Source of the DNA: Gloeobacter kilaueensis JS1
GTDB taxonomy: Bacteria > Cyanobacteriota > Cyanobacteriia > Gloeobacterales > Gloeobacteraceae
Length of the DNA: 64,000 nucleotides
Direction of reading: 5' to 3'
Assembly (NCBI RefSeq): GCF_000484535.1
Contig: NC_022600.1
Coordinates: 4,146,234 to 4,210,233, forward strand
Part shown: in pieces, positions 35,858 to 38,703 of the stretch
How the letters are laid out: each line of letters starts with the position of its first letter
Position numbering within the stretch: position 1 is the first letter of the stretch
The notes under the pieces: model-generated
The model's database searches: none
What the model saw: the letters and a program-made list of their open reading frames with translations, nothing else
What the model was told of the DNA's origin: nothing
Translations under genes and position numbers: made by a program

Positions 35858-36142
35858 ATGAAGACAGGCAGTATCGCCGCCGCGCTGGCAATGGTTTTAA
35901 CGGGTTTAGCTGCCCCTGGGGTTCTGGCGGCAAGTGCGGTCCAGCCAACTTTGAGCACCGCCCAGGTACTCGACGCTTTTTACCGCTGCACCGAAAAAAG
36001 ACCCCAGAGTTTTTGTCGCGACTGGCTGTACACCCACTTTGAACAGGTCGCCGAGGGCCAGTGGGTGGCGCGCGGGATTTCGGCTGGGCGGCCAGACATT
36101 TCAGGCTTTGATTGGCAGCAGCACATCCGCAAGAATCCGTAG
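35858..36142 (+). CDS. Small exported protein of unknown function
   Basis: The 94-aa product has a signal peptide (KTGSIAAALAMVLTGLAAPGVLA) and a small mature domain with two Cys (FYRCTEKRPQSFCRDW) that may form a disulfide. GGAGG precedes the ATG. The last 42 bases overlap the convergent channel gene. No family recognised. Confidence 0.62.
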   Translation: MKTGSIAAALAMVLTGLAAPGVLAASAVQPTLSTAQVLDAFYRCTEKRPQSFCRDWLYTHFEQVAEGQWVARGISAGRPDISGFDWQQHIRKNP

Positions 36143-37138
36143 CTGGGGGCGGGTGCCCAGACAAAAGAGCATGTCCCCAGAAGCGAGAATCGTCTCGCCG
36201 TTGGGGTTGCCGATGAGCGAGCCGTCGGCGCGGCGGATGGCGACGATGAGGGCACCGCTCTTGTTGCGCAGGTCCGTCTGGTTGAGGGGCAGGCCGACGA
36301 ACGGGCACTGGGGGCGATCGATCTGAAATTCTTCGATAAAAAGGGAGCGGTTGCTGCCGCTGATGGCCGTCTCGATAAAGTCCACGACGCCGGGACGCAG
36401 AGCAATCGCCGCCATCCGCCGCGCCCCGGTGGTATAGGGGGAGACGACTTCATCCGCCCCGCCCCGGCGCAACTTGACCGCAGCTTCTTCGCTGCTGGCG
36501 CGGGTGATCGTGCGCACTCCCGCGTTGAGGTTGCGCGCCGAGAGAACGATGAACAGATTGTCCGCGTCGGAGGGCAGAGCGCAGATGACGCAGCGCGAGC
36601 GCTCGATACCGGCGGCGATCAAGGTTTCGTCGTCGCTGGCATCGCCCTCGACGAGCAGGTACTCCTTTGCTCTGGCCTGGCTCGCCGCCTTTGGATCGGC
36701 TTCGACGACGACGAAGGGGGCATGATCGTGGGCAAGTTCCTCGCAGATCCGGCTGCCCATCCGGCCATAACCGCAGACGATAAAGTGATCTTGAAGTCGG
36801 CTGAGCATCCGTTGGCCGCGAGTGAACTGCAATCCCTCTTGAAGATAGCCCTCGCCCAGCGCCTGAACAACTTGATTGATCAAAAAGCCGAGGGCAGTGA
36901 CACCGAGGAGAATCAAAAATATCGTAAATATCTTACCTGGGGCCGTGAGCGTACCGGCGTCGCTGTCGCTGATGCCTGAGAGGGTGCTCACGGTCATATA
37001 AAGCGCGTCCAGGGGCGACCAGTGCTCGATCGCGACGTACCCGGTCACGCCGATCAGGTACAGAGCGACGACGATGCCCAGAATGTTGAGGAGGCGGCGG
37101 CGAAACTGGCGCAGCCGCTCGGCGGCGGTGCCGTTCAC
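36101..37138 (-). CDS. K+-channel-like protein with TrkA (RCK) domains and unusual filter
   Basis: The product (345 aa, GTG start sharing four bases with the nagA stop) has two membrane spans (about 19-37 and 70-88) around a pore loop, then an RCK/TrkA-N Rossmann domain (FIVCGYGRMGSRICEEL) and a TrkA-C domain near residues 260-345. This is the architecture of RCK-gated K+ channels such as MthK. The loop, however, reads TLSGISDSD where TLTTVGYGD is expected, so the K+ filter Gly-Tyr-Gly is replaced by Ser-Asp-Ser. Ion selectivity is therefore doubtful. An upstream extension of the same frame is a shadow of nagA. Confidence 0.85.
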   Translation of the reverse strand: MNGTAAERLRQFRRRLLNILGIVVALYLIGVTGYVAIEHWSPLDALYMTVSTLSGISDSDAGTLTAPGKIFTIFLILLGVTALGFLINQVVQALGEGYLQEGLQFTRGQRMLSRLQDHFIVCGYGRMGSRICEELAHDHAPFVVVEADPKAASQARAKEYLLVEGDASDDETLIAAGIERSRCVICALPSDADNLFIVLSARNLNAGVRTITRASSEEAAVKLRRGGADEVVSPYTTGARRMAAIALRPGVVDFIETAISGSNRSLFIEEFQIDRPQCPFVGLPLNQTDLRNKSGALIVAIRRADGSLIGNPNGETILASGDMLFCLGTRPQLRILADVLLPIKA

Positions 37139-38265
37139 AGGTCGTCCAGCCGCACGGGCCGGGAGCGATGGGCAGGCCAGAAGAGCAGATCGTCGCCGTC
37201 GCTGGCTGTGGGCCAGCCGACCGTTAGACCCAGGGCGCGGCGCGGGGCGACAGCAGCCATCGAGAGCGCACTGCCGCGATCGAGATCGCCCTGTTCGATC
37301 AGGCGCACCAGCACGTCCGTCAGGCTGAGGGCACTGCCGGCGAGCCGTCCGTCCGCGAGCGTCACCTGGCCCGCTTGGACGGTGATCCTCAGGCCGTGCC
37401 AGTCGTACTCGCCATCGGCGATCCCCAGGGGAGCGACTGCGTCGCTCACCGGGATCAGAGCATCTGTCCCTTTTAAGGCCAGCAGCAACCGGACGGTGGC
37501 CGGGTGGAGGTGGATGCCGTCGGGGATGCACAGGCACTGCACGCGCCGATCGAGCAGGGCAGCGCCCACCACCCCCGGTTCGCGGTGATGAAAGGGGCGC
37601 TGGGCGTTGAAGATGTGCGTGACCAGCCGCGCCCCCCGATCGAAGGCGCGCCCGGCCTGCTCGAAGGTGGCGGCGGTGTGGCCCAGGCTCACGGCGATGC
37701 CCCGCTCCACCAGCCAGGGAATCACGCGCTCGTCCGGGTCCAGCTCCGGAGCGAGGGTGATGAGCCTGACCAGGGCGCTGTGATCCCCCAGGACCGCCTT
37801 GGCATCCTCGATCGTGAGCGGCAGCAGATACTGGCGCATGTGCGCCCCTTCGTACTCCGGATTGAGGAAGGGGCCTTCTAAGTGAACGCCCAAAATGCGG
37901 GCGCGGCCTGCTTTGGGCTGAAACCGGGCAATAATCTCCATCGCCTGGTGCAACTTGCCCACCGGCACGCTGATAAGCGTCGGCAGCCAGGCGGCGATCC
38001 CGATCGACCACAGATACGCAGCGATCCGCTCTAACTGCTCCAGGCCCGCCTCGGGAGAAAGTTCTGAAAATTCGACGCCCAGAGCGCCGTTGAGCTGCAG
38101 ATCGACCAGTCCCGGACTCACCCAGCCACCCGCCAGATCGATCGTCCGTCCGGCTTCACTCCAGCTGCCGCCCCCCGGTTTTACCTGCAGCAGGCGTCCC
38201 CCATCGACCAGTAAGCTATAGGTACCGCCGTCTCCCACCCAGCGAGCGTTGTGGATCTGCTGCAT
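37135..38265 (-). CDS. nagA: N-acetylglucosamine-6-phosphate deacetylase
   Basis: NagA removes the acetyl group from GlcNAc-6-P in amino-sugar and cell-wall recycling. The 376-aa protein starts at ATG 38265. Active-site segments are DLQLNGALG, HLEGPFLNPEYEGAH, SLGHTAATFEQA, VTHIFNAQRPFHHREPG, DGIHLHPATV and VSDAVAPLG. The stop overlaps the channel gene by four bases, so the two genes are co-transcribed. No nagB is nearby. Confidence 0.93.
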   Translation of the reverse strand: MQQIHNARWVGDGGTYSLLVDGGRLLQVKPGGGSWSEAGRTIDLAGGWVSPGLVDLQLNGALGVEFSELSPEAGLEQLERIAAYLWSIGIAAWLPTLISVPVGKLHQAMEIIARFQPKAGRARILGVHLEGPFLNPEYEGAHMRQYLLPLTIEDAKAVLGDHSALVRLITLAPELDPDERVIPWLVERGIAVSLGHTAATFEQAGRAFDRGARLVTHIFNAQRPFHHREPGVVGAALLDRRVQCLCIPDGIHLHPATVRLLLALKGTDALIPVSDAVAPLGIADGEYDWHGLRITVQAGQVTLADGRLAGSALSLTDVLVRLIEQGDLDRGSALSMAAVAPRRALGLTVGWPTASDGDDLLFWPAHRSRPVRLDDL

Positions 38266-38298
38266 TGCGTCTGTCCTTTGCTGCCTTGAGTGTAACCA

Positions 38299-38703
38299 AT
38301 GCGAAAGCGCGTCATTTTGACCTTTCCGCCCGCCGTCGTCCATATGCCGGTCACCTATCGGCTTGCCAAGGACTACAACATCGCAAGCAACATCCTGCGC
38401 GCCCACGTCGCCCCCGACGAGGTGGGCAAACTGGCAGTCGAACTCTCGGGCGACATCGATCAGATCGAAGCAGCGGTCCACTGGATGCGCGATCAGGGCA
38501 TCGATGTTTCGCTGATGGGGGGCGAGATCGTCATCGACGAGGCGCTGTGCGTCCACTGTGGCCTGTGTACCGGCGTTTGCCCGACCGCAGCCCTCACCCT
38601 CCAGAGCGAGACTTTTTTGCTGCAGTTTCGCCGTTCGCGCTGCATCGTCTGCGAGCAGTGCATCCCGGTCTGCCCGACGGCGGCGATCTCCACCAACCTC
38701 TAA
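38299..38703 (+). CDS. NIL-domain ferredoxin (2x4Fe-4S)
   Basis: The 134-aa protein has an N-terminal NIL domain (residues 1-75, as in methionine-transporter ATPases) fused to two 4Fe-4S motifs: CVHCGLCTGVCP and CIVCEQCIPVCP. NIL-ferredoxins occur in cyanobacteria and anaerobes; they are linked by family context to sulfur or methionine metabolism, but the electron partner is unknown. Only 33 bases separate it from the divergent nagA start. The next gene, a glycosyltransferase, follows 15 bases after its stop. Confidence 0.9.
   Translation: MRKRVILTFPPAVVHMPVTYRLAKDYNIASNILRAHVAPDEVGKLAVELSGDIDQIEAAVHWMRDQGIDVSLMGGEIVIDEALCVHCGLCTGVCPTAALTLQSETFLLQFRRSRCIVCEQCIPVCPTAAISTNL

Follow-up and report, generated by a model that had tools for sequence, protein, structure and literature searches.

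Within a window of 64,000 nucleotides from the cave cyanobacterium Gloeobacter kilaueensis JS1 (the whole stretch of DNA analysed here, taken from a genome that is a single contig of 4,724,791 bases) lies a gene for an MthK-type RCK channel, whose parts are collected in Table 1 together with the upstream neighbour. The protein, called the query in what follows, has the domain order that defines these channels, a pore with two transmembrane (TM) spans followed by RCK-N and RCK-C. Pfam recognizes all three parts above the curated cut-offs (Ion_trans_2 at 4.9e-10, TrkA_N and TrkA_C as in the table), while none of the 17 NCBIfam matches reaches its cut-off. RCK-N contains the Rossmann nucleotide motif GxGxxG in the form GYGRMG (residues 123-128), and 140 of 143 other cyanobacterial sequences share the glycine of M2, G79. 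The two-span pore module and the RCK domains are thus intact, as the original prediction from the DNA letters had held. It had also placed Ser-Asp-Ser where K+ channels carry Gly-Tyr-Gly, and the alignment agrees to the residue: SDS stands exactly at the GYG position of the congeners, with no gap. The surrounding stretch reads TLSGISDSDAG, and GISDSD departs from the K+-selective motif, be it T-V/I-G-Y/F-G or the form of this family in which the third position varies.

Table 1 Features of the RCK channel locus (positions in the window)
Feature	Positions	Strand	Remarks
MthK-type RCK channel gene, 345 aa	36101..37138	-	open frame, no internal stop
M1 helix, residues 16-38	37025..37093	-	alignment and AlphaFold helix 2-38
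Pore helix PLDALYMTVSTLS, residues 42-54	36977..37015	-	Ser51 here, Ile51 in congeners
Filter G55-I-S-D-S-D60 (congeners G-V-G-Y-G-E)	36959..36976	-	gap-free alignment
M2 helix, residues 66-95	36854..36943	-	alignment, AlphaFold
RCK-N domain, residues 117-250	36389..36790	-	Pfam TrkA_N 2.3e-35
RCK-C domain, residues 265-342 (Pfam stretch 277-334)	36113..36346	-	Pfam TrkA_C 2.9e-10
Upstream amidohydrolase, nagA-like	37135..38301	-	start provisional; adjoins the channel in congeners too

The channel gene starts with a GTG that overlaps the TGA stop of the upstream amidohydrolase gene, which we take to be nagA-like. This GTG is preceded by GGACGACCT, whereas the congeners have an ATG after GGAGGT(A/G)CG; their GGAGG has been lost upstream of the query start. 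The overlap of stop and start itself is retained, as GTGA here and ATGA in the congeners, so translation by coupling is possible. A GTG start and a lost GGAGG would fit reduced expression, and they are the main support for a reading in which the gene is in early decay, a dispensable channel heading towards a pseudogene. The frame, however, is fully open. MthK also yields a free, soluble RCK by translation that begins within the gene; an equivalent product was considered here and rejected, as Met111 occurs in only 10 of 143 other cyanobacterial sequences and is not a feature of the family. At the 3' end of the channel gene, a small convergent ORF with a signal-peptide-like start (35858-36142, + strand) overlaps it by 42 bases and had no match outside this genome among the loci compared.

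Orthologues were found in three congeners (L007, L008 and L009), 69% identical and aligned over the whole protein, and in the sister genus of the same family (L010, 60% identity). A locus of Aphanocapsa lilacina (L036) encodes a protein identical to that of L007. All of them differ from the query in reading AGVGYGE at the filter. The amidohydrolase gene adjoins the channel gene in each of these five loci, although it is only partly covered in L010, and beyond it a ferredoxin-like gene is present in L007, L008, L009 and L036. On the other side of the channel, glgA was found in L008 and L009, where the two genes nearly touch, but not in L007 or in L036, the latter covering 5 kb on that side. Since the orthologues in the congeners and the sister genus read AGVGYGE, the change of the filter must have arisen on the G. 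kilaueensis lineage; an ancestral GVGYGE, with a replacement specific to this lineage, is well supported by the comparison.

Could such a filter simply be an artefact of sequencing or assembly? The change is seen in a single isolate, as an artefact would be. Against this stand the codons themselves: GGC TAC GGC GAG in a congener and AGC GAC AGC GAC here are four separate base substitutions apart, and in the codon alignment of the two the replacements are spread over codons 51-69, on both sides of the filter and with no indel. Substitutions scattered in this way would not result from a frameshift or an assembly join, and a local sequence error was rejected on the same ground; no repeats were found at the filter. 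Moreover, the finished genome combines 454 and Illumina data at 93x coverage, and its authors give fewer than 1 error in 100,000 (PMC3806779); we consider an artefact very improbable. Of the two signs that the original prediction had named as telling against it, one is present, as relatives do have GVGYG or TVGYG-like filters at this place, while the other, an obvious local error, is not: the differences are substitutions only, with no frameshift. The main text of the genome paper (PMC3806779) does not contain the terms potassium, ion channel, transporter or channel.

A census among relatives shows how far the filter stands apart. It was read in 231 of 235 loci, the remainder being four other channels of this genome (L001-L004) that gave no alignment; these four, a second copy of the query (L005) and the duplicate protein L036 were left out of the counts. 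The cyanobacterial set comprises 150 sequences including the query, and the non-cyanobacterial set, assigned by record title, comprises 79. The former stems from a relatives search (58 of 59 genomes matched) and a class search (177 of 388 genomes matched at E <= 1e-70), of whose matches the census covers a part, those listed. The latter stems from the best 80 of 308 relatives, and its search patterns lay outside the filter, so that there was no selection for GYG. The first filter glycine (position 57) is found in 149 of the 150 and in all 79, the Ser of the query being the sole exception read. Position 58 is Phe or Tyr in 149 of the 150, with the query the exception, and in 78 of the 79, the last having Ile; Asp at this place occurs only in the query among the sequences read. 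Position 60 is Glu in 149 of the cyanobacterial sequences, the query alone among the 150 having Asp, and in 76 of the 79 others. By comparison, the third filter position (59, the second glycine) was already variable, with Gly in 97 of the 150 and 47 of the 79, and Ser, Met, Leu, Ala, Arg, Gln and other residues in the rest.

The alignment of homologues, proposed along with the original prediction as a check on whether SDSD is conserved, gave a negative answer: SDSD is found in none of the 228 other relatives read. None of these has lost the first glycine either, which lends weight to a second explanation, namely that the pore no longer conducts and selection retains the protein for sensing RCK ligands at the membrane, or for its gating ring, the constraint having been lifted from the filter alone.

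Apart from the query, position 59 is non-Gly in 52 of 149 cyanobacterial (L007-L035, L116-L235) and 32 of 79 other sequences (L037-L115), and the Glu that follows this variable position, in 149 of 149 and 76 of 79, marks a widespread TVGFxE filter class. Searches for the printed strings TVGFSE, TVGFGE, TVGFME, TVGYSE and TVGFAE found no papers, a result of little weight because such strings often stand in figures. As to the SDSD filter, no description appears in the titles and abstract openings listed for Gloeobacter kilaueensis, for Gloeobacter potassium channels and for the filter literature.

Where, then, did the substitutions fall? Lineage-specific changes were scored at sites with one and the same residue in the sister genus and all four congener sequences. 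The filter and the loop behind it (55-68) changed on the G. kilaueensis lineage at 5 of 8 such sites, compared with 19 of 187 elsewhere (Fisher p = 8e-4) and 6 of 34 in M1, pore helix and M2 together (p = 0.02). Branch lengths were compared on a fixed tree of 45 of the 144 distinct cyanobacterial orthologues (6 chosen and 40 random, after which L035, a long-branch paralogue placed beside the congeners, was dropped); of its 44 other terminal branches, 41 were tested, the remaining 3 having a length near zero. In the pore stretch 47-68, which was picked after the finding, the best fit gives the G. kilaueensis branch 16-24 times the length expected by scaling from the remainder of the protein (2dlnL 37.4, against a maximum of 4.1 among the 41 others); a less biased statement comes from a window scan over the entire sequence, in which the 14-residue windows richest in changes, with 7 each, start at 47-51. 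With L035 kept in the tree, multipliers were taken up to 12x, where 2dlnL reached 33.8, and none of 42 other branches exceeded 3.5. Columns that are at least 95% conserved in the 144 sequences tell a similar story: of the 3 that lie in the filter and loop, the query has a different residue at 2, and 141 of the 144 depart at none; when the set is widened to 223 sequences, a single further one departs at 2 of these columns.

Outside the pore the picture is a different one. The G. kilaueensis branch is shorter there than the congener stem (0.182 vs 0.289), and the total of changes is 24 of 195 sites, compared with 31 of 202 on that stem. RCK-N is the most constrained part, with 3 changes at 89 sites and, relative to L008, a dN of 0.121 at a dS of 0.777. 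A lineage-specific remaking that is local to the filter region, with the rest of the protein not accelerated, is therefore well supported. These numbers also bear on early decay, which would not be expected to centre on the filter or to leave the remainder of the protein changing no faster than the congener stem; what does fit it is that, outside the pore loop, the query departs at 5 of the 84 conserved columns against a median of 1, although ten of the 144 sequences, the query included, show at least 5. On balance we think decay unlikely.

The same distribution is more ambiguous for a pore that has ceased to conduct. An acceleration centred on the filter together with the strong constraint on RCK-N is in keeping with a retained sensor, but M1 and M2 are constrained at least as much as on the congener stem (1 of 10 and 2 of 13 sites changed, vs 5 of 14 and 4 of 15). 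The changes also trend one way, with Ser or Asp at six of the positions 51-60, which would not point to lifted constraint; this is an impression with no statistic attached, and Ser at position 54 is common, occurring in 43 of 143 other cyanobacterial sequences. We regard a non-conducting sensor as a serious alternative, if a doubtful one.

Structure prediction adds to this question. AlphaFold models of the query and of the congener protein L036 as control, both made from the same 29 sequences, have mean pLDDT values of 85.4 and 86.3 and show the same order of helices and strands except in the stretch after the pore helix, where the query has a short helix at 59-63 and the control has coil. The ten-residue means of pLDDT around this place are 74 and 80 in the query and 69 and 89 in the control. 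The predicted helix may hint at a blocked pore, and it is a hint only, as models of a monomer cannot settle a tetrameric filter. A Foldseek search with the query model returned MthK first (8djb_A, E 1.8e-23). In VIA-align the top places went to isolated TrkA_N domains (Z 19.7 and 19.1), ahead of MthK, which scored Z about 18 over some 280-300 residues at an rmsd near 11.

How does the query compare to channels that are already known? MthK, an archaeal Ca2+-gated K+ channel, shares with it the two-TM pore and one RCK domain, and the sequence match spans residues 17-334; it differs in its GYG-type filter, as opposed to GISDSD, and is 22-24% identical in the Foldseek rows. When the pore alone is compared with solved structures, entries of NaK come out best, 3t2m (TVGDGD) at 1e-8 and 2ahy (TVGDGN) at 4.4e-8, followed in lower ranks by a NaK variant with TVGFGD (3tet, 2.2e-7) and by MthK (4e-4). 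The congener pore (L036) gives the opposite order, with K2P6 at 6.2e-12, MthK at 4.9e-11 and wild-type NaK 2ahy at 1.8e-8. However, the bit scores to 2ahy are about equal, 36.7 for the query pore and 37.9 for the congener pore, and hence the shift in ranking stems from a lost likeness to K+ channels and not from a gained likeness to NaK. The query resembles NaK in that D58 aligns under the NaK Asp, at the place of the filter Tyr; it is unlike NaK in having Ser at 57 and 59, where TVGDG keeps both glycines. NaK, moreover, is not known to carry an RCK domain.

Functional descriptions exist for a few channels of this kind. NaK with the filter TVGDGN is described as non-selective (PMC9822992). NaKTs of Tsukamurella paurometabola is, like the query, a two-TM channel of a bacterium whose filter (LPMGNGPLSP) is unusual, and it is reported to be non-selective and Ca2+-binding; unlike the query it is proline-rich, and the filter stretch as printed lacks acidic residues. 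It shows that a bacterial two-TM channel can stray far from GYG and still conduct (PMC5052707). The plant nuclear channels CASTOR, DMI1 and POLLUX, likened here by description only, are RCK-gated and have an acidic filter in place of TVGYG, but are predicted to have four TM segments and a larger soluble part. For CASTOR the filter is given as ADS(A)GNHA and the channel as Ca2+-selective, and neutralising the filter Asp (D265N) left no current (PMC6697748). A tested channel with Ser at the first filter glycine was not met in the literature searched.

Judged from its sequence, the G. kilaueensis protein probably passes ions without potassium selectivity, or passes no ions at all. The original prediction had expected K+ selectivity to be abolished and had named a divalent or non-selective channel, or a regulatory subunit, as outcomes; it is supported in part, for the intact module with its non-K+ filter, and the lost selectivity and each of these outcomes stay candidates. 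The reading we favour over a non-conducting sensor and over early decay, and to which we give a little less than an even chance, is that the protein, still gated by its RCK ring, has ceased to be a K+ channel and has most likely become a non-selective, Ca2+-binding cation pore similar to NaK and CNG channels. A presumably tetrameric two-TM channel with an RCK gating ring would have lost its K+ filter while its gene stayed constrained. D58 would form an acidic ring where NaK has its Asp (TVGDG), and D60 a second one at the outer Asp/Glu position of K+ channels. The pore would most likely still open when a nucleotide or other ligand acts on the RCK ring; monovalent cations would then pass with no preference for K+, and Ca2+ would be bound or passed, by analogy to NaK and CNG channels. 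The chief weakness of this favoured reading is that SDSD occurs in this one sequence alone among those read. The NaK score that did not rise, the GTG start with its lost GGAGG, the helix predicted at 59-63 and the departures at conserved columns outside the pore loop also weigh against it. A bolder version, by which a K+ channel turned Ca2+-permeable or Ca2+-selective within one genus through GYGE to SDSD together with I51S and A54S behind the filter, independently of plant CASTOR, appears improbable to us.

Few short motifs in membrane proteins are conserved as highly as the K+ filter. In this case, orthologues of the same genus that are 69% identical come to differ in just this motif, the rest of the protein not being accelerated. 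If the query conducts, the orthologous pair would be a natural experiment on the conversion of a K+ filter into something different and on the residue changes that accompany it; if it does not, an RCK channel can persist in a genome without a K+ pore.

What else can carry K+ in these genomes? Five proteins of G. kilaueensis match Ion_trans_2, the RCK channel being one. The other four (L001-L004) have K+-type filters: a 6-TM channel (TSVGYGD), two pentapeptide-repeat two-TM proteins (TTGYGD) and one of Kir type (TIGYG). The search of the three congeners matched none of these types. A heteromer with another RCK channel was considered and rejected, there being no second RCK-bearing pore among the five; this bears also on a role as regulatory subunit, one of the possibilities in the original prediction. 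The congeners have two Ion_trans_2 matches each, one of them the RCK channel. The second is a short two-TM protein with RIGYGD in two of the congeners (G001 and G003) and, in the third (G002), a glutamate-receptor-type channel with SBP_bac_3 around Lig_chan (L272:1114-2271, - strand). As for transporters, each congener has one TrkH/KtrB-type gene, and none was matched in G. kilaueensis or the sister genus; KUP-type genes gave one match below the cut-off in G. kilaueensis and none in the other four genomes. The kdpA gene occurs in all five genomes. With other K+ routes present, the RCK channel may have been free to lose its K+ task, a correlation that comes from one genome. The four additional channels speak for both alternatives, as K+ could flow elsewhere if the RCK pore were closed for good, and the same inventory, along with the unmatched TrkH/KtrB-type gene, would suit a gene that has become dispensable.

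G. kilaueensis and the sister genus have two copies of kdpA. Those of G. kilaueensis lie side by side (G000:C1:2858433-2862118, L250), a short TrkA_N frame being found at a distance of about 5 kb, and in the sister genus a 155-aa TrkA_N frame lies about 1.2 kb from one kdpA (G004:C73).
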